This document shows, in pieces, positions 18,469-30,750 of a stretch of 64,000 nucleotides of DNA; the first letter of the stretch is position 1; every line of letters starts with the position of its first letter. Origin of the DNA: Acidimicrobiales bacterium (lineage in GTDB: Bacteria > Actinomycetota > Acidimicrobiia > Acidimicrobiales > MedAcidi-G1); the NCBI GenBank assembly GCA_029577135.1, contig JARQPW010000012.1, positions 1 through 64,000 of the forward strand. The letters run 5' to 3'. A program made the position numbers and the translations under genes. The notes under the pieces were generated by a model. That model was not told the origin of the DNA. It ran no database searches and worked only from the letters and a program-made list of their open reading frames with translations.

Positions 18469-19314
18469 TCAACTCTGTTCCTTCCCGTACAACCGCTGCG
18501 AACGCTCCGACCGCTCCGAGGCGGCGAACCGGACGTACTTCACGACGATGATGCCCCAGAGGTAGAAGCCGCCCAGCACCTTCATGACCGCACCGGCGGC
18601 CTGCTGGTCGGAGATCACGCCGATCCCCCACGGCTCGAATCCGTCGTCGTACACCCGGTAGACCGCCCCCTCGGCAAAGGTCAACCAGCCGGCCGGGATG
18701 GTCGGGATGATCGACATGAGGAACAGGTAGAGCATCTGGCCGGGGGGTCCCAGCCGTTCTTCCCGGATCGGCGACACGACCGGCATCCACATCAGCAGCG
18801 CCGAGGTGAACAGCACCACGTGGGCCGAGTAGTGGAAGGCACTGTTCTCCGCCGAGAGGCTCACGATGCCGCTCCAGTGTGTGAGCGCCACCAGGGCGTT
18901 GAAGACCACGCCGGCTACGACCGGATGCGAAAGGCGCCGCAGGATCGCCGATGATGCCCCGCCCTCGAGGACCACCAGCCGGGCCAGCCAGGCCGGAGTG
19001 GCCAGGAGGAACAGGGGCGGCACCATCATCGTGATCGACATGTGCTGGAGCATGTGCACCGAGTAGAGGTGCTTCTCGGCGATGTCGTGCACCGGCCAGT
19101 CCGCCGAGAGGAGGAGCAGGAGAACAGCGAGGACGAAGGCGCGCTTCTGGAAGCGCGTGGCAACGGGGGTGCCGACGGGCAGCACTCTGGGCCCGATGCG
19201 GGTCGCCCACCACCCCAGCCCAACGATGGCGAGCACGAGGAACCAGACCTCGGGGTGGGCCTGGAAGGCCCAGGGGCTGGCGGCGGCCAGCATCGGCGCG
19301 GCGGGCATCAGCAA
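18469..19314 (-). CDS. ctaG: Cytochrome c oxidase assembly protein, caa3 CtaG family
   Basis: This 281-residue polytopic membrane protein of the caa3_CtaG family is associated with assembly of caa3-type oxidases, probably in copper delivery. It shows SVHMLQHMSITMMVPPLFLLATP with conserved His and Met, and several membrane segments with a late VVSPIREE loop. It is the last gene of the oxidase run, 39 bp after the COX4-like gene, and the context supports the assignment. Confidence 0.85.
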   Translation of the reverse strand: MLMPAAPMLAAASPWAFQAHPEVWFLVLAIVGLGWWATRIGPRVLPVGTPVATRFQKRAFVLAVLLLLLSADWPVHDIAEKHLYSVHMLQHMSITMMVPPLFLLATPAWLARLVVLEGGASSAILRRLSHPVVAGVVFNALVALTHWSGIVSLSAENSAFHYSAHVVLFTSALLMWMPVVSPIREERLGPPGQMLYLFLMSIIPTIPAGWLTFAEGAVYRVYDDGFEPWGIGVISDQQAAGAVMKVLGGFYLWGIIVVKYVRFAASERSERSQRLYGKEQS

Positions 19315-19353: not shown

Positions 19354-19668
19354 CTAGCCCTTGGACCAGAACTCGAAGGCGGTGAGGGCGATGCAGTACA
19401 CGACCGTTGCGAGGATCAGGCCCGCCACGAAGAACCGCCTGAAGAGGATGCTGTCGAACTTCAGGTGCATGAACCAGGCAGCCACGTAGAAGAACTTGAC
19501 GACCATCATCACCAGCAGCGCCGGGATGAGGATCGGGCCGATGTCCACGAAATAGGTCGAAACCTCGGCAGCCGTGAGCGCCGCCAACAGGATGGCGATC
19601 TGGACGTACTTGGCGTCGGAGGGATGCTCGTGCTCGGTGTGCGTGACGGCGGCGGTATCGGTGCTCAT
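19354..19668 (-). CDS. Cytochrome c oxidase subunit IV family protein
   Basis: This 104-residue protein has a soluble His/Asp N-terminus (HTEHEHPSDAKY) and three membrane helices. It contains VMMVVKFFYVAAWFMHLKFD, the pattern of the prokaryotic COX4-like family. Small subunits of this kind stabilise subunits I and III. It lies 17 bp downstream of ctaE, in the usual ctaC-D-E-IV order. Confidence 0.88.
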   Translation of the reverse strand: MSTDTAAVTHTEHEHPSDAKYVQIAILLAALTAAEVSTYFVDIGPILIPALLVMMVVKFFYVAAWFMHLKFDSILFRRFFVAGLILATVVYCIALTAFEFWSKG

Positions 19669-19685
19669 TGCTGCGGGCTCCCTGT

Positions 19686-20324
19686 TCAACTCGTCGGCGA
19701 GGGCACGAGGTAGATGACGGTGAAGATGAAGATCCAGACCACATCGACGAAGTGCCAGTAGAGGCCGACGATCTCGACGGTCTCGGAGTTCTTCTGGGTG
19801 AGCGTGCCCCGGTACGACGAGATGGCCAGCGACATCAACATCACGATGCCGACGCTGACGTGGATGCCGTGGAAGCCGGTCAGCGTGAAGAACGCAGACG
19901 AGAACGGGCTGGTCGTGTAGCCGAGGCCCTCCCGGAGGAAGCTCGTGAACTCGTAGACCTGGCCGCCGATGAACAGCGAGCCCAACAGGGCCGTGGTCAG
20001 CAGCCAGATCCGGTTGTTGCGGATGTCGCCCCGCTGCAGCGCTGACAGCGCCAGCACCATGGTGAGCGAGCTCATGAGGAGCACGAACGAGCTCACCGAG
20101 GTGAACGGGATGTCGAAGATGTCGCCGGGCGCAGGCCCGGTGTGGAACCGGCTCCGGTTGATCAGGTAGGCGGAGATCAGACCGCCGAACAGCAGGCACT
20201 CCGAACCCAGGAACACCCACATCAGGAGCTTGTTGTTGGAAATGCCCGTCAACGTGCCGTGGTCTCCATGGTCGTGGTCCCCGCGTGCGGGCTCGCCCGC
20301 CTCGGTAACGATCGCCTCACTCAA
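19686..20324 (-). CDS. ctaE: Cytochrome c oxidase subunit III
   Basis: This 212-residue protein has a His/Asp-rich cytosolic start (RGDHDHGDHG) and five membrane helices. The canonical COX3 signatures are SECLLFGGLISAYL, GFHGIHVSVG and YWHFVDVVWIFIF. The TTG at 20324 is the preferred start: it overlaps the ctaD stop (TTGAGTGA) and has GGAGG just upstream. The frame extends further, but that extension lies within ctaD and is unlike COX3. Confidence 0.93.
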   Translation of the reverse strand: MSEAIVTEAGEPARGDHDHGDHGTLTGISNNKLLMWVFLGSECLLFGGLISAYLINRSRFHTGPAPGDIFDIPFTSVSSFVLLMSSLTMVLALSALQRGDIRNNRIWLLTTALLGSLFIGGQVYEFTSFLREGLGYTTSPFSSAFFTLTGFHGIHVSVGIVMLMSLAISSYRGTLTQKNSETVEIVGLYWHFVDVVWIFIFTVIYLVPSPTS

Positions 20325-22326
20325 CGGAAGCCGCCTCCTCCTGGGGAGCGCTCTCGTCGCTCGCGGACTCTTCGGTCTCCCCGTGGCCTTCATCCCCGTG
20401 GCCTTCATCCCCGTGGCCACCGCCGAAGGGCCCGTCGGGGTCGTCGGGCGGCTCGAACACCCAGGCATAGACACCGATCAGGACGAGGATGGTGCCCGGC
20501 ACGCAGATCCAGAGGTTGTACAGGAGGCCGAAGCCGACCAGCGGCAGGCCGGCGGCCACCACGACCGGCCAGTAGGACGGCGACGGCAGGTGCACGTCGT
20601 CGGCGTCTCCCGTCTGGCAGACCTCGGCCGCCGTGGCCCTGCGGACGACCCTGCCGTTTTCGTCGGTCGTCCACTTGCGGTGCCAGAACTCGTCCAGCGA
20701 CGAGACCTCGACGATCTCGTCGAAGTTGTGCACGGGCGTCGGGTTCGGGGTGAACCACTCGAGGCTGCGGGCATCCCACGGGTCGGGCGGCTCGGGCGGC
20801 AGGCCCCGTGCCCGCCGGGCCGACAGGATCACGTTCATTGCGAAGCACAGGACGCCGAATGCGATGACGAACGCACCGACGGTGGCGAACAGGTTCCAGA
20901 ACTCGAACCCGAAGCCCGGCGAATACGTGTCGATCCGGCGGGACATGCCGTTGAGGCCCAGGATGTGCATCGGACCGAACGTCATGTTGAAGCCGACGAT
21001 CATGAGCCAGAAGTTCCACTTGCCGAGTGTCTCGCCGAGCCTGTGGCCGAAAACCTTGGGCCACCAGAAGTAGAAGCCGGAGAAGAAGCCGAGCAGGGCG
21101 CCACCGAAGATCACGTAGTGGAAGTGGGCCACGATGTAGTAGGTGTCGGTCTGCTGGGTGTCGGCCGGCGACACCGCGTGGGTGACGCCCGAGAGGCCGC
21201 CGATCGTGAACATCGACACGACACCGGTGGCGAACAGCATCGAAGCGGTGAGCCGGATCTTGCCGCCCCACATGGTGGCCAGCCAGTTCAGGATCTTCAC
21301 GCCGGTCGGAACGGCGATGAACATCGTCGAGAGCGTGAAGGCACCGATCGAGATCGGTCCGATGCCCGACACGAACATGTGGTGCGCCCACACGCCCCAG
21401 CCCATGAAGCCGATGGCGATGCCCGAGAAGACCATGAACTCGTAGCCGAAAAGGGGCTTGCGGCTGAAGGTCGGGATGACCTCCGAGACGATGCCGAACG
21501 ACGGCAGGATCAGGACGTACACCTCGGGATGCCCGAAGATCCAGAAGAGGTGTTGCCACAGCAGCGGGTCGGCGCCCATCTCCGGGTTGAAGAAGTTCGC
21601 ACCGAAGTTGCGGTCGAAGAGCAGCAGGAACAGCGCCACCGTGATGACCGGGATGGCGAAGAGCAGCAGGAACTGCACCACCAGGATCATCCAGGTGAAC
21701 ACCGGCATCTTGAACAGGGTCATGCCCGGCGCCCGCATGTTGAGCACCGTCACGATCAGGTTCATCGCCGAGACCAGCGAGGCGATGCCGGCGATCTGGA
21801 GGCCGATGGCGTAGAAGTCCATGCCGTGTCCCGGCGAGAACGTCACGCCGGTGTTGGGTGCGTAGGCGAACCAGCCGCCGTCGGGGGCGTCGCCCACCAG
21901 CCAGGAGAAGTTCAGGAACAGGCCGCCCGCCAGGAAGAGCCAGAACGACATGGCATTGAGACGGGGGAACGCCACGTCGCGGGCGCCGATCTGGAGCGGC
22001 AGCAGGTAGTTCGCGAAGGCGGCCGCCAGGGGCATGATCACCAGGAAGACCATGGTGACCCCGTGCATCGTGTAGAGCTGGTTGTAGAGGTCGGCGCCGA
22101 CGACGGTGCCGTTCGGGGTGGCCAACTGCAGGCGGATCAGCAGGGCCTCGAAGCCGCCGATGCCGAAGAAGAACAGTGCGGCACCGCCGTACAGGATGCC
22201 GATCTTCTTGTGGTCGACGGTCGTGACCCAGTCACGCCAGCCACCGCCGCCCTTGGGACGGGAGTAGACGCCGAGCGGAAGCGCTGCGCCACCGCCCGAT
22301 GTCAGTTCTGCCACGGGTTCACTCAT
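20317..22326 (-). CDS. ctaD: Cytochrome c oxidase subunit I (caa3-type)
   Basis: This 669-residue catalytic subunit has every metal ligand: haem a His88 and His403, CuB His266 within HPEVY and His315-His316, and haem a3 His401. Tyr270 gives the His-Tyr cofactor. After the 12-helix core it carries a C-terminal extension from about residue 540 with two more membrane helices and an acidic/His tail (GHGDEGHGDEGHGE). The tail comes from short tandem repeats in the DNA near 20388-20420. ATG 22326 has GGAG 8 bp upstream. It reduces O2 and pumps protons. Confidence 0.96.
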   Translation of the reverse strand: MSEPVAELTSGGGAALPLGVYSRPKGGGGWRDWVTTVDHKKIGILYGGAALFFFGIGGFEALLIRLQLATPNGTVVGADLYNQLYTMHGVTMVFLVIMPLAAAFANYLLPLQIGARDVAFPRLNAMSFWLFLAGGLFLNFSWLVGDAPDGGWFAYAPNTGVTFSPGHGMDFYAIGLQIAGIASLVSAMNLIVTVLNMRAPGMTLFKMPVFTWMILVVQFLLLFAIPVITVALFLLLFDRNFGANFFNPEMGADPLLWQHLFWIFGHPEVYVLILPSFGIVSEVIPTFSRKPLFGYEFMVFSGIAIGFMGWGVWAHHMFVSGIGPISIGAFTLSTMFIAVPTGVKILNWLATMWGGKIRLTASMLFATGVVSMFTIGGLSGVTHAVSPADTQQTDTYYIVAHFHYVIFGGALLGFFSGFYFWWPKVFGHRLGETLGKWNFWLMIVGFNMTFGPMHILGLNGMSRRIDTYSPGFGFEFWNLFATVGAFVIAFGVLCFAMNVILSARRARGLPPEPPDPWDARSLEWFTPNPTPVHNFDEIVEVSSLDEFWHRKWTTDENGRVVRRATAAEVCQTGDADDVHLPSPSYWPVVVAAGLPLVGFGLLYNLWICVPGTILVLIGVYAWVFEPPDDPDGPFGGGHGDEGHGDEGHGETEESASDESAPQEEAASVE

Positions 22327-22339
22327 CGAAGCATCTCCA

Positions 22340-23557
22340 TCACTCGACCTCCGTGGCAACAATGATGCCGATCGACGGGCTGGTTCCGAGGGTCTGGAGG
22401 TAAGCCACCACGTTGTCGATCTCGATCTCGCTGAGGCCCAAAGCCGGCATGCCGCGACGGCCCTCGGCGTAGGCGGGCTTCTCGGCCGGCGCGTTGCGCA
22501 GCCAGGCCTCGAGCTGGGGGCGGTTGAGGTTGCCGTTCGGCTCGTAGAGGTTGAAGATGCCGCCGGCGAAGGTGGTGCGGCTCATGAGGTGCGTCAGGTT
22601 CGGCGCGGCGTTCGACACCAGGTCGGCACCCGTGCTGGGCGTCTCGTCATGGGGTCCGTTGACGCCGTTGATCACGTGGCAGCGTGCGCACTGGGCCTCG
22701 AAGATGGCCCTGCCGGCGACGGCAGCCGCATCGGTGGGCTCGACGGCCGGCTGCAACTGCTGGTCGACCCAGGCCTGGAAATCGGCCGTGCTGAGCGCCA
22801 CCGTCTGCATCCGCATGCGGGAGTGCGACAGGCCGCAGAACTCGGTGCACTGGCCGAAGTAGACGCCCGGCTCGTCGGCGTTGACCTTCCAGAAGGTGAT
22901 GCGACCCGGGACGGCGTCGCGCTTGCCGTTCAGCGCCGGGATCCAGTGGCTGTGGATCACGTCGCGGCTGGTGATCTTGAGTTCGATCTCCTGGCCTGCC
23001 GGGATCACCATCTGGTTGGCGGTGACGATGTCGGCCGGCGGGAGGTTGCGTTGGTCGGAGAGGTCGACGCCCTCGAGGCCACCGAAGTAGTAGCGGTACT
23101 CCCACCACCACTGCTGGCCGACCACGACCACCTCGGGCTCCCACATCGTGGGCTCGCCATCGACGGACAGTGCCATGGCGTTGTCCTCGTTGCTGCTGAT
23201 GTCCACCAGGGTCAGGATCGTGAAGATGGAGATCACCACGAGGATCACGGTCGGGACGATCGTCCAGAGGATCTCGAGGCGGAAGTTGCCGTGGATCTGC
23301 TCGGGGTACTCCTCGTCGCTGTAATCGTCGTGGAACCGCCACCAGAGGAAACCGGTGCCGCCGAAGACGACCAGGAACACCACCCCGGCCACCATGAAGA
23401 CCGGATCCGAGAGGTTGTCGATGGTGCGCGCGTAGGGACCCTGCGGGTTCAGCGTGTCGAGTTCGGCGTCGGACGCGCAGCCGGCGAGCGCGAGGAACGC
23501 GCCCAGCAGTGCCGCCGGAACCCCGGCCCTACGGAAGAACCTCACGACCCTGCCCAC
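22340..23557 (-). CDS. ctaC: Cytochrome c oxidase subunit II with fused cytochrome c domain
   Basis: This 405-residue lipoprotein (lipobox LAGC, Cys27) has two membrane helices and a CuA cupredoxin domain with ligands in CTEFCGLSHSRM (Cys237, Glu239, Cys241, His245, Met248). A C-terminal class I cytochrome c follows, with CARCH at 290-294 and axial Met in GMPALG near 370. The fusion makes the complex caa3-type. GTG 23557 shares one base with the preceding stop (TAGTG); GTG 23545 is an alternative. It takes electrons from cytochrome c or bc1. Confidence 0.95.
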   Translation of the reverse strand: MGRVVRFFRRAGVPAALLGAFLALAGCASDAELDTLNPQGPYARTIDNLSDPVFMVAGVVFLVVFGGTGFLWWRFHDDYSDEEYPEQIHGNFRLEILWTIVPTVILVVISIFTILTLVDISSNEDNAMALSVDGEPTMWEPEVVVVGQQWWWEYRYYFGGLEGVDLSDQRNLPPADIVTANQMVIPAGQEIELKITSRDVIHSHWIPALNGKRDAVPGRITFWKVNADEPGVYFGQCTEFCGLSHSRMRMQTVALSTADFQAWVDQQLQPAVEPTDAAAVAGRAIFEAQCARCHVINGVNGPHDETPSTGADLVSNAAPNLTHLMSRTTFAGGIFNLYEPNGNLNRPQLEAWLRNAPAEKPAYAEGRRGMPALGLSEIEIDNVVAYLQTLGTSPSIGIIVATEVE

Positions 23558-24348
23558 TAGTGCCCGTCCCCTGACTGCGTGTCCGTGGCGTTCGCGTCGC
23601 TGCCCTTCAGGTGGAACTCCCGTTCGCCGGTGGCGGCGGTGACGATGCCGGCCACGATCACGGCGACGAAGCCGACCAGAAGTGCACCCTGCACCATGCC
23701 CCGGGGCAGGCTCGGGTTGCGGCTGACAAAGGCGGCTCCACCCAGGACGACGACGGCGACGACGGTGGCGACGACCACGGCGCCGTTGACCGAGGAGGCC
23801 AACAGCACCCGGGACGTGGCGAGCACGAGGACGCCGATCCCGAGCGTGCCGAGTACCGGGATCTCGACCGGGCGCATCAACTTCTCGCGTTGTGCGGCGT
23901 TGTGGGCCGGGTCGCCGCTGAGCTTCTCGGACCAGTTGGTCATGGTCCACTCGACGGCGATGGAAACCAAGGCGCAGATGCCGACGACGAACACGACGGG
24001 GTGGACGACGGCACCGACGGCGGTGGCGCCCACGCCGAGGGCGGCGAAGACCGGCCACCACGACCCGCCCACGGGGCGCTGGGCCGGCGGGGCGTCGTCC
24101 GTTTCGAGCAGTTCGGCGGCGGCCTCGGCGTCACCGTCCCGGAAGGCGACCGCGAACAGCGCCAGTCCGAGCGCCACGCCGGCAGCGGTCACGAGCAGCC
24201 CGTAGGAGATGTGGTTCCCGACGGCACCCTTCCAGGCGACGCTGATCGGGCCGGTCTGGTCGCCCCCGGAGGTGTAGCCGGCGAAGGACGCCGCGCCGAA
24301 GGCAGCCACGAAGATCCCGAACCAGAGCTTGAAGCCGGTGGTGAACAT
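23557..24348 (-). CDS. CtaF-like oxidase-associated membrane protein, extended
   Basis: This 263-residue membrane protein has about six or seven helices. Its first ~150 residues (LWFGIFVAAF, then SWWPVFAALG and VEWTMTNWSEKLSGDP) recall actinobacterial oxidase subunit IV, CtaF, which is usually about 130-140 residues. The second half adds around three helices with no known counterpart and a hydrophilic tail. It sits between the COX3-like gene and ctaC, overlapping ctaC by one base. Being in the same operon supports an oxidase role. The CtaF resemblance is by eye. Confidence 0.65.
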   Translation of the reverse strand: MFTTGFKLWFGIFVAAFGAASFAGYTSGGDQTGPISVAWKGAVGNHISYGLLVTAAGVALGLALFAVAFRDGDAEAAAELLETDDAPPAQRPVGGSWWPVFAALGVGATAVGAVVHPVVFVVGICALVSIAVEWTMTNWSEKLSGDPAHNAAQREKLMRPVEIPVLGTLGIGVLVLATSRVLLASSVNGAVVVATVVAVVVLGGAAFVSRNPSLPRGMVQGALLVGFVAVIVAGIVTAATGEREFHLKGSDANATDTQSGDGH

Positions 24349-24377: not shown

Positions 24378-24971
24378 CTACTTGGCCACGTAGATGAAGA
24401 GCCAGATGACCGAGTAGACGGCCACGACGACATACCAGAAGATCGACACCGAGATCACGAGGTCCTGGTGGCGGCCGGTGGCCTGGCCACCGAATGCACG
24501 CAGCAGGACCAGGCCCATCCACAGCACGGCGATGCCGGTCATGACCATGTGGGCGCCGACGATGACGTACAGCAGGGTCGTGGCGACGTTGTGGTCGATC
24601 GGCAGGCCGATGTCGTTGAAGTAGAAGACCGTCTGGTTGATGGCGGCGATGCCCAGCAGTGCCGTGAGGCCGAGGGCGAGGTAGCCGTGGATTCGGTACT
24701 CGTGGATGCTGGCGTAGTGGGCCCAGGCCATCGTGACGCCGGCCATGGCGAAGGTCGACATGAGCGATCCGCCCGGCTTGAGCTCGATGGCGCCCTCCGG
24801 GAACCACTCGGCACCCCAGGCGAGGGTGTCGTTGCGGACCGAGAAGTAGAGCGAGAAGAGCGCCCCGAAGAACATGATGGCTGCACCGGTTGCGAAGGCC
24901 GTGCCGACCAGAAGGGTGCGCGGTCGGGCGAGGGGGGCCTCGACGGGGGCGAATTCGGTGCCGGCGGCCAT
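24378..24971 (-). CDS. COX3-like protein, second copy, divergent
   Basis: This 197-residue five-helix protein is related to oxidase subunit III: the layout LLVGTAFATGAAIMFFGALFSLYF and IVGAHMVMTGIAVLW matches COX3 helices. It diverges from the canonical copy at 19686-20324, where YWHFVDVVW is replaced by FWYVVVAVY. The SEC segment with the conserved Glu is also gone. ATG 24971 overlaps the stop of the upstream COX1-like gene (TGATG). It probably partners that protein. Confidence 0.75.
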   Translation of the reverse strand: MAAGTEFAPVEAPLARPRTLLVGTAFATGAAIMFFGALFSLYFSVRNDTLAWGAEWFPEGAIELKPGGSLMSTFAMAGVTMAWAHYASIHEYRIHGYLALGLTALLGIAAINQTVFYFNDIGLPIDHNVATTLLYVIVGAHMVMTGIAVLWMGLVLLRAFGGQATGRHQDLVISVSIFWYVVVAVYSVIWLFIYVAK

Positions 24972-26566
24972 CAGGAAGCTGCTCCCGAGCCCTCGAGGGC
25001 ATCCAGCAGGGGGCGTTCGGAGGTGACCTCCACGGAGGACGGGTCTGCTGCCCACTCGAGCGTGTGGCCACCCCACGGGTCGGACGGGGCGGCGGCGCCG
25101 GTGAGGCGCCTGATGCCGTTGGCGAACCAGCCGAGGGCGCCGACCAGCAGCAGCACGCTGCCGGTCAGGGCGACCAGGTTGAGGGAGTCGACGCCGGAAT
25201 CGGGAGATCCGGCAGCGACCACAGAGGCGCCGGTGAAGTCGTTCTGGCCCATGAAGCCGCTGAGCAGATCGGCGACGCCGACGAGCAGCACACCGACGAC
25301 AGCGACCAGGCCGGCCAGGAGGCCCAGCCCCTGCGAGGTGGATCGACCCACGATGCGGTCGCCCCACCAGAGGGTGCCGGCCATGGCTCCGACGAATGCG
25401 GCCCCCATCGTGAGGGTCATCTGGGCGCCGGTTGCAGAGGTGGCGAGCAGGTCAAAGGGGTCGACGGCCCGCAGGGCACCCACGATGGCGGCAGCCAGCA
25501 GGAGCAGCATGGCCAGCACCGACAGGACCATCGGAGCCGGCGGCCTGTTGCCGGCACCCGGTCCGAGGTTGGCGGCACCCCGACGCAGCGTGTCGGCCAA
25601 CCCGCCGAACAGCGCAAGGGCGACCAGAGCGGCGGCAAAGGCATCGACGACGTAGATCGCCTCGTTCATGACCGGCGTGCCGGGGGTGTCGAAGAACGAC
25701 TGGGCGTAGGCCCCGAAGCCGACGACACCGAGCATCGTGGTGAGGACCAGGACGACGTTGTGGCTGGCAAGTCGGCTGCGCACCGACACCGGAACGATGT
25801 CGAAGGCGATGCCGACCAGTGGAAGGGCGAAGGCGTAGACCTGTGGGTGGCTGAACGCCCAGGAGAGCTGCTCCCAGATGGCGTCCTCGGCCCCGAAGCG
25901 CACGGCGGTGCGGCCCCGGAGGTCAACGTAGGCGAGGACGGCGTTGGCGGCCAGCACCGGCAGCGTCAGCAGCCAGAAGGTGCCCGCCACCAGCAGCGTC
26001 CAGCTGAACAACGGGATGCGACCCAGCGTGAGGCCGGCGACGCGGCCGCAGACGATGGTGGTGAGCAGCGAGATCGTCGCACCCAGAAGGCCGCCGATGA
26101 CCATCAGGAGGCCGACAAGGGTGAGGGCGACGGCCTGGCGCTGGCCGCCGGCGTCGGGGGCGCCCAGCCCGCCGTCGATCAGGAAGCCGGTGACGGTGGT
26201 GCCGGCGCCGATCAGCCAGGTCCAGAAGGAAAAGGCGGCCATCCGGGGAAAGGCAATGCTGTCGGAACCGACCTGGAGGGGGGCCACTGCCGTACCGAGA
26301 CCCACGAGGATGGGCACGATGGCGAGCAGCACGAACCCGACCCGGTGGGCGGACCAGAACTGGAAGACCTCGTCGGCGCTGCCGAACACCTGGGCACCAC
26401 CGAGATCGAGGCGCTCGAGGGCGACGAGGACGCCCGCGACGAGGCTGGCCAGTAGCGTCAGCGAGCCGGCGCCGAGCCAGTAGCGGCCGAGTGTGTTGGC
26501 ATCGGTGGAGGTGACGACGCGCTCCAGCGCGGTTGCGCCGTCGGTCTCCAGGGGGGTGTCGGTCAT
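24971..26566 (-). CDS. COX1-like protein lacking most haem and CuB ligands
   Basis: This 531-residue polytopic protein is homologous to ctaD along its length: APLQVGSDSIAFPR matches PLQIGARDVAFPR, WEQLSWAFSHPQVY matches the CuB helix, and DPWGGHTLEW matches DPWDARSLEW. The first haem a His is kept (His74), as are His240 and Tyr244. The CuB pair His-His is Gln289-Ser290, and the haem a3/a pair HFH is QMT at 382-384. It cannot bind the normal binuclear centre. ATG 26566 is used; the frame is intact, so it is probably not a decaying gene. Confidence 0.8.
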   Translation of the reverse strand: MTDTPLETDGATALERVVTSTDANTLGRYWLGAGSLTLLASLVAGVLVALERLDLGGAQVFGSADEVFQFWSAHRVGFVLLAIVPILVGLGTAVAPLQVGSDSIAFPRMAAFSFWTWLIGAGTTVTGFLIDGGLGAPDAGGQRQAVALTLVGLLMVIGGLLGATISLLTTIVCGRVAGLTLGRIPLFSWTLLVAGTFWLLTLPVLAANAVLAYVDLRGRTAVRFGAEDAIWEQLSWAFSHPQVYAFALPLVGIAFDIVPVSVRSRLASHNVVLVLTTMLGVVGFGAYAQSFFDTPGTPVMNEAIYVVDAFAAALVALALFGGLADTLRRGAANLGPGAGNRPPAPMVLSVLAMLLLLAAAIVGALRAVDPFDLLATSATGAQMTLTMGAAFVGAMAGTLWWGDRIVGRSTSQGLGLLAGLVAVVGVLLVGVADLLSGFMGQNDFTGASVVAAGSPDSGVDSLNLVALTGSVLLLVGALGWFANGIRRLTGAAAPSDPWGGHTLEWAADPSSVEVTSERPLLDALEGSGAAS

Positions 26567-28646: not shown

Positions 28647-29558
28647 ATGAGATCGCGTCTGTCACCCGATGCGTACCACCGCATCAGCGGCATCGCCCTC
28701 GGACTGCTGGCGATGATCGTCGTCACCGGCGGTGCCGTGCGCCTGACCGGCTCCGGCCTGGGATGTTCCGACTGGCCGACCTGCGAACAGGACCAGGTCA
28801 TCCCCGAAGCCGAGTTCCACGGCTGGGTCGAGTTCGGCAACCGCCTTCTCACCGGCCTCGTCTCGGTGGTCGTGGTCCTGGCCGTGCTCGGCTCGATGGC
28901 CCGGAACCCCCGTCGCTCCGATCTGGTGCGCCTGTCGTGGGGACTGGTCGCAGGCGTCCTGGCGCAGATCGTGCTGGGAGGGATCGTGGTGCTCAGCCAC
29001 CTCAACCCGTGGCTGGTGCTGGGCCACTTCGCCCTGTCCATGGTGCTCATCGGCAACGCCGTGGTCCTGCGCCACCGGTCCGGCGACCACCTGCGTGTGG
29101 CCCGACCACCGACCCCGACACCGTCGGACCGGCTCCGGTCGATGGCCACCGGCATCACGCTGTTCTCGGTCGTGGTGCTGACCACCGGCACGTTCGTCAC
29201 CGGCTCGGGCCCCCACACCGGCAGCCGCGACGACCCGATCCCCCGCCTGCCGTTCCGGCCCTCCGACATCGCCCGGGTGCACGGGACGACCGTGGTGTTG
29301 TTCCTCGTGATGGTCGCGGCGCTGGCCCTGGCCGTGCGCCGCGATCCGACCGGTGAGCGGCTGCGGCCCCGGATGCAGGCGCTCGGAGCCGTCGTCGTGC
29401 TCCAGGCCGCCATCGGCTGGACGCAGTACTTCACCGGCGTGCCCGAACTCCTGGTCGGGCTGCACCTCGCCGGCGCCACCGCCCTGTGGGCGACCGTCGT
29501 GTCCCTGGGGCTCGAGGCCCGGGAACACCTTCCCGTTCCCGAAGGCGCCCCGGCATGA
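28647..29558 (+). CDS. ctaA: Haem A synthase
   Basis: This 303-residue eight-helix COX15/CtaA protein oxidises haem O to haem A. Its signatures are [21 protein letters not shown] with paired Cys in the first extracytoplasmic loop and conserved His residues in [27 protein letters not shown] and GLHLAGA. It supplies haem A to the caa3 oxidase in the same window. Its stop overlaps the clpS start (ATGA). Confidence 0.95.
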
Positions 29559-30434: not shown

Positions 30435-30510
30435 GCCCCCATCGTCCAGCGGCCTAGGACGCCGGCCTTTCACGCCGGTAACACGGGTTCGAATCCCGTT
30501 GGGGGTACCA
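30435..30510 (+). tRNA. tRNA-Glu (TTC)
   Basis: The acceptor GCCCCCA pairs with TGGGGGT (one G-U at the end). The anticodon stem CCGGC/GCCGG encloses CTTTCAC with anticodon TTC. The T-loop is TTCGAAT. CCA is encoded at 30508-30510. It is the first of three tandem tRNA genes. Confidence 0.97.
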
Positions 30511-30557
30511 GGAACGGACGGTTCGGATGCCTTCTGGAAATCCGGCCGGTCGCTCGG

Positions 30558-30635
30558 GGTCCTGTGGTGCAGTTTGGAGTGCACGCCGGCCTGTCAAGCC
30601 GGAGGTCGCGGGTTCAAATCCCGTCAGGACCGCCA
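30558..30635 (+). tRNA. tRNA-Asp (GTC)
   Basis: The acceptor GGTCCTG/CAGGACC is fully paired. The anticodon loop CTGTCAA gives GTC, the T-loop is TTCAAAT and the discriminator is G, as expected for Asp. CCA is encoded at 30633-30635. Confidence 0.97.
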
Positions 30636-30641
30636 CCGTCC

Positions 30642-30658
30642 CCCGCCCATCGGGCGGG
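30642..30658 (+). other. Hairpin between tRNA-Asp and tRNA-Phe
   Basis: A perfect 7-bp stem, CCCGCCC/GGGCGGG, with loop atc lies 6 bp after tRNA-Asp. There is no T-run, so it is more likely a processing or pause hairpin than a true terminator. Confidence 0.4.
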
Positions 30659-30666
30659 AGGCGCAC

Positions 30667-30739
30667 GGTCGGGTAGCTCAGTTGGCAGAGCGTCCGCCTG
30701 AAAAGCGGAAGGTCCCCGGATCGACGCCGGGCCCGACCA
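30667..30739 (+). tRNA. tRNA-Phe (GAA)
   Basis: The acceptor is GGTCGGG/CCCGACC. The anticodon stem TCCGC/GCGGA carries loop CTGAAAA, giving GAA. The T-stem CCCGG/CCGGG is perfect but the T-loop is ATCGACG, with A rather than T at position 54. CCA is not encoded. Confidence 0.95.
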
Positions 30740-30750
30740 CCGAGACCGGA

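Follow-up and report, generated by a model that had tools for sequence, protein, structure and literature searches.

Within a caa3 oxidase operon of a marine Acidimicrobiales bacterium, we found a COX1-like protein (X1) whose predicted fold is that of COX1 without its cofactor ligands. It is encoded together with a COX3-like partner (X3) and a third membrane protein (TM) in the window, as we call the whole analyzed stretch of 64,000 nucleotides. On balance, we lean towards the view that this module (X) represents a cofactor-free pseudo-oxidase, with counterparts of subunits I, III and IV, which is co-expressed with caa3 and serves it as a partner in structure or assembly. The searched open-access literature contained no earlier description of such a protein, although subscription journals could hold one; X appears to be a new branch of the haem-copper oxidase superfamily that is free of cofactors and of which intermediate forms survive.

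Organization of the locus

The minus-strand genes of the window follow the order ctaB-X1-X3-TM-ctaC-ctaD-ctaE-ctaF-ctaG, and ctaA is divergent from ctaB. The features are as follows:

18469..19314, minus strand: ctaG, caa3 assembly factor (PF09678)
19354..19669, minus strand: ctaF-like small membrane subunit (boundaries approximate)
19686..20474, minus strand: ctaE, canonical COX3 with WHFVD present (start codon approximate)
20317..22326, minus strand: ctaD, canonical COX1, every ligand present, Cyt_c_ox_IV region at the C-terminus
22340..23545, minus strand: ctaC, COX2 of the caa3 type, fused to a cytochrome c domain (start codon approximate)
23557..24348, minus strand: TM, 263 aa, third protein of the module, with 7 helices and a COX-IV-like hairpin, no cupredoxin
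24378..24971, minus strand: X3, COX3-like partner, 197 aa, ATG start, WHFVD signature lost
24971..26566, minus strand: X1, cofactor-stripped COX1-like protein, 531 aa, 12 transmembrane helices
26798..27691, minus strand: ctaB, haem O synthase (from synteny and profile matches; named by sequence similarity)
28647..29558, plus strand: ctaA, haem A synthase (from synteny; named by sequence similarity)

X1 is an intact ORF with an ATG start, lying downstream of ctaB in the same direction after a gap of 231 bp. It shares one base with X3 inside TGATG, in agreement with the initial annotation, which had described both frames as intact and overlapping. That annotation had missed the third gene (23557-24348), as well as the relatives with haem ligands and cupredoxin that reveal the order of cofactor loss. 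The C-terminal extension of the window CtaD (20317-22326) matches COX IV (PF12270), which corresponds to a fusion of subunits I and IV, despite the presence of a separate ctaF-like gene. Downstream of ctaA, three tRNA genes (Glu, Asp, Phe) are clustered at 30435-30741; the ORFs overlapping this cluster are probably spurious.

An oxidase fold without cofactor ligands

X1 matches the COX1 family (PF00115) over 416 residues (E 1.6e-41; 143 bits against a cut-off of 34.8). Its AlphaFold2 model, built with 45 sequences, has 12 helices (pLDDT 92.4, pTM 0.94), and the best PDB matches found by Foldseek were subunit I of the bcc-aa3 supercomplexes of C. glutamicum (7q21) and M. smegmatis (6adq), with TM-scores of 0.81–0.85 to the subunit I chains of actinobacterial supercomplexes and of 0.84–0.85 to COX1 of these two species. 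Together with the alignment, these results bear out the earlier observation that the fold and the AFPR, HPxVY and DPW..LEW segments are kept. X1 did not reach the curated models for CtaD (TIGR02891, 189 against 670.75 bits) or aa3 subunit I (NF050116, 146 against 880 bits), and no NCBIfam model matched X1 or X3 at its cut-off.

To examine the individual residues, X1 was aligned with the in-window ctaD, other COX1 proteins and 71 X1 relatives; positions are given in Rhodobacter numbering, with the usual roles in CuB and haem a3/a ligation and in the proton channels. The CuB pair His333-His334 is replaced by Gln-Ser, and His419-Phe-His421 by Gln-Met-Thr, exactly as initially described. Thus the haem a3 ligand His419 is Gln, and of the low-spin bis-His pair H102 is present and H421 has become Thr. 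The D- and K-channel positions have changed as well (D132 to S, N139 to A, E286 to Q, T359 to A, K362 to L), and both arginines R481/R482 are gone (D/F). The description of X1 as ligand-stripped therefore holds for two CuB histidines, the haem a3 histidine and one haem a histidine, but His102 (in SAHRVGF) and the CuB ligand His284 (in HPQVY) remain. His102 is replaced in many relatives (by Y, S, N, Q and others), and His284 is kept in the close relatives of the window X1 and replaced elsewhere, mostly by Q or V. Across most of the family the ligand columns are occupied by residues other than His.

No other alignment brings the ligands back. A register error was ruled out: the flanking motifs PLQxG..AFPR, HPxVY and DPW..LEW fix the alignment, and at these columns HxH occurs in relatives. 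A non-catalytic oxidase-like module, as proposed initially, is still the best reading of the locus; the proton-path role mentioned among its options is disfavored, because X1 has lost its redox centers as well as the residues of the D and K channels.

The partner X3 matches COX3 (PF00510; E 3.7e-9, 37.3 bits against a gathering score of 23.8). The CtaE segment GLYWHFVDVVWIF aligns with SIFWYVVVAVYSVIWLF in X3, and the WHFVD signature, the loss of which had been noticed from the start, is absent: the aligned place reads WYVVV. For TM, 7 helices were predicted with a pLDDT of 77. The actinobacterial COX IV profile PF12270 gave no hit to TM; the TM profile, in turn, matches the C-terminal extension of true CtaD, in the region where PF12270 matches the window CtaD. 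Foldseek with TM alone returned no significant match, and its top three ranks, individually non-significant (E about 1), were subunit-IV-sized chains of actinobacterial supercomplexes. On the strength of the profile match and these ranks, X1, X3 and TM together look like a full second oxidase, with subunits I, III, IV and, presumably in the ancestral form, a cupredoxin where subunit II would be.

Such a cupredoxin, with an H..C..H..M motif, was found at the C-terminus of TM in only six of the 72 sequences: L104, L105, L109 and L112 (PF13473 above the cut-off), L110 (PF13473 below the cut-off) and L136 (by motif). A TM-like half-protein also occurs at the caa3 operon of other orders (L126-L134), near ctaG or ctaC, where X1 and X3 are absent; it mostly adjoins ctaG and matches mostly about columns 146-242 of the TM profile.

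Distribution, selection and order of cofactor loss

Tblastn-type scans and whole-genome searches revealed X1 in every member sampled from the family to which the window belongs, and also in many further families of its order. In this one Acidimicrobiia order, about 60 loci have X1-X3-TM between ctaB and ctaC, with the arrangement ctaB-X1-X3-TM-ctaC-D-E-F-G conserved, and X1 and X3 are always accompanied by TM where the contigs permit a check. The trio or its TM marker is missing from some families of the same order (L100, L102, L103; f16, f18, f20, f24), and the other orders of the class have ctaC-D-E-F-G without X1 and X3. Outside Acidimicrobiia, the strongest matches retrieved, scored against X-only and canonical profiles, were all canonical COX1. 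The Acidimicrobiia operon is also present in MAGs labelled as Acidobacteria (L069), Terriglobia (L029) and Thermoanaerobacterales (L067), which are probably mislabelled or chimeric.

Within the genus of the window, the dN/dS of X1 ranges from 0.12 to 0.28 (mean 0.18). The means for X3 (0.18) and TM (0.21) are likewise similar to those for ctaD (0.16), ctaE (0.16) and ctaC (0.20). Across the X1 clade, from close relatives down to about 25–30% identity, the frames are mostly intact, with a single in-frame stop in a few copies; neither widespread frameshifts nor dN/dS near 1 were seen among the homologs. Low dN/dS, the synteny at about 60 loci and the persistence of the clade uphold the earlier impression that the frames are selected and not decaying.

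The constraint has shifted. Mean pairwise identity across families is 39% for X1 versus 72% for CtaD. In CtaD, conservation is highest in helices VI-VIII (0.94–0.95), whereas X1 has no column at least 90% conserved in helices VII, VIII or IX; its peaks lie in helices II, III, V and VI and in the tail, so that constraint has moved from the active-site helices VII-X to helices II-VI and the C-terminal DPWGGHTLEW. The divergence of X1, X3 and TM tracks CtaD best, and not CtaE or CtaC (partial rho 0.58, 0.63 and 0.71, respectively, corrected for the other cta genes). This suggests joint evolution, which is not proof of contact, and CtaD may track X1 merely as the best species clock.

The homolog search that had been recommended for the missing residues showed the full CuB trio (H284, H333, H334) in none of the 72 X1 sequences and loss of the low-spin His pair in 62 of them. 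All three haem histidines are kept in five (L104, L105, L109, L110 and L112; TGHLHVVIFG, TAHIHMVVFG), in which the CuB ligands are replaced (FGRPEVY, AAG); five others (L069, L077, L091, L101 and L136) keep only the low-spin pair. In a tree built under a mixture model, with the ligand columns left out, all X1 sequences share a common origin: they group in a single clade with 100/100 support, apart from CtaD and the other COX1 proteins. An origin of X1 as a recent duplicate of the local ctaD was consequently rejected. The lineages bearing haem ligands branch first, the 30 stripped sequences form one clade (100/98), and both the CuB trio and the low-spin pair change once. The position of L136 as the first branch is weakly supported (92/55), and the fine details of the tree are unsure, the X branches being long. 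The order of TIGR02891 scores parallels that of ligand loss: L136 376, L104 338, L112 250, window 189 and L040 128 bits, with the haem-retaining members at 250–376 bits and all below the cut-off of 670.75.

Haem histidines are thus kept by the most CtaD-like relatives, and in six relatives TM has a cupredoxin; the loss was therefore stepwise, in which CuB disappeared first, followed by the haem sites (the low-spin pair once) and the cupredoxin. The cupredoxin occurs in 6 of 10 ligand keepers and in 0 of 62 stripped sequences, a correlation that was rejected as independent evidence, since the tree offers only one informative pair. Read from the tree, an ancient oxidase-like complex gave up CuB a single time, at the root of the clade. 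In a tentative scenario, to which we give somewhat less than even weight, this complex, made up of subunits I, III, IV and a cupredoxin, arose beside caa3 in Acidimicrobiia and lost CuB first. A cupredoxin-plus-haem module would have been retained in some families, as a CuB-less electron-transfer or haem-only enzyme; elsewhere, including the window's lineage, the low-spin haem site would have been lost once and the complex would have become a pure scaffold, a cofactor-free permanent half of caa3.

Possible roles and comparison with known systems

As a structural partner, X1, X3 and TM would form one complex, most probably bound to CtaD-CtaC-CtaE of the caa3 oxidase encoded just downstream, and this pseudo-oxidase core would be a permanent structural or assembly component. 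Two observations speak against such a role: X1 has diverged from family to family faster than CtaD to an extent that exceeds the expectation for a tightly packed partner (39% versus 72% identity), and other orders of the class run caa3 without X1 and X3, so the module is not needed for caa3 in general. The module could instead be a transient chaperone in CtaD assembly, placing haem A or CuB or holding CtaE/CtaF, and not a mature subunit. Its location immediately downstream of ctaB and opposite ctaA, its mimicry of the CtaD fold and the haem histidines of the early-branching forms are in line with this, as is the distribution of SURF1 among 42 genomes (21 of 22 with X, 1 of 11 same-order genomes without X and 2 of 9 from other orders), an association confounded with taxonomy and with the oxidase type of each genome. 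Yet SURF1, CtaG and CtaB are all present alongside X, so that no missing haem or copper factor is replaced, and in members of the window type few residues remain that could bind haem or copper; we consider a chaperone rather unlikely. As SURF1 co-occurs with X, the idea of X as a SURF1 substitute was rejected. An adaptor joining caa3 to another complex, such as a split cytochrome b or a quinol dehydrogenase, is improbable. In genomes with X, cytochrome b is typically encoded by a short, split ORF (about 260–300 aa), whereas same-order genomes without X carry the long actinobacterial QcrB, and the conserved helices II-VI and C-terminal tail could mark an interface. The link is not specific, however, because the split form is also found in other orders without X and several genomes with X carry both kinds; moreover, CtaC has its own cytochrome c domain. 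Among the 42 genomes, the short cytochrome b ORF has a stop inside the matched stretch in several cases, and it is present in genomes of other orders as well.

That X still performs redox chemistry, with unusual ligands or on a substrate different from O2, for instance by electron transfer through the remaining His, Gln or Met side chains, is a shade less probable still. This reading is consistent with the early-branching members, which keep His102, His421 and often His419 together with a blue-copper-type cupredoxin, and with the window copy, in which His102 and His284 persist and Gln-Met could in principle ligate haem. In the stripped clade, however, no residue is fixed at the ligand columns (His102 becomes Y, S, N, Q, W, F, R or A; His421 becomes T, K, N, E, S, A or V), which fits no conserved cofactor site; helices VII-IX lack any column at least 90% conserved, and the cupredoxin is absent. 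Least credible, and very improbable in our judgment, is a functionless, slowly decaying relic of an oxidase duplication. Fast divergence between families and the single in-frame stop in a few copies would be expected of it, but at 0.18 the dN/dS nearly equals the ctaD value, the frames are intact in nearly all genomes examined, and three linked genes have been kept together in the exact operon position over the depth of the order.

With family A haem-copper oxidase subunit I (CtaD/CoxA; TIGR02891, PF00115), X1 shares the 12-helix fold, PLQxG, AFPR, HPxVY, DPW..LEW and the adjacency of COX3; it differs in its separate clade and in the absence of the CuB trio, the haem a3 histidine, the low-spin pair and a D or K channel. 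The bcc-aa3 oxidases of C. glutamicum (7q21) and M. smegmatis (6adq) are the closest solved structures for X1, and their subunit-IV chains top the non-significant fold matches of TM; the catalytic subunits of actinobacterial aa3 supercomplexes have the cofactor ligands that X1 lacks. The solved subunit I(+III) of Thermus-type caa3 (2yev) was also matched by X1, and a caa3-type gene set adjoins X. The Thermus enzyme is catalytic and, unlike X1, contains all cofactors. None of the solved chains among the structure matches of X1 is described as a cofactor-free subunit I. In cytochrome bd, CydB stands beside its membrane paralog CydA, whose fold it shares but whose haem sites it no longer has. This pair, of unrelated fold, is the closest analogy to X1 and CtaD, for which the link observed is that of one operon; in X, by comparison, the whole set of subunits I, III and IV would be duplicated, and intermediates of stepwise loss survive.

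Subunit I of haem-copper oxidases is a strongly conserved respiratory protein whose ligands are regarded as invariant. A conserved, selected, cofactor-free sister complex would imply that the COX1 fold has a use beyond redox chemistry. A match to PF00115 is thus no proof of an oxidase, which matters for the annotation of aerobic respiration in metagenomes. If the stepwise history is true, the family would preserve successive stages between enzyme and pseudoenzyme within the haem-copper oxidase superfamily. The relatives with haem ligands and without CuB offer natural test objects for the role of haem without a binuclear center and for the way in which a bioenergetic enzyme turns into a pseudoenzyme. 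L104, L105, L109, L110 and L112, with the haem a/a3 histidines, and L136, with the low-spin pair only, combine the lack of CuB with a cupredoxin-bearing TM and are candidate CuB-less electron-transfer or haem-only enzymes.
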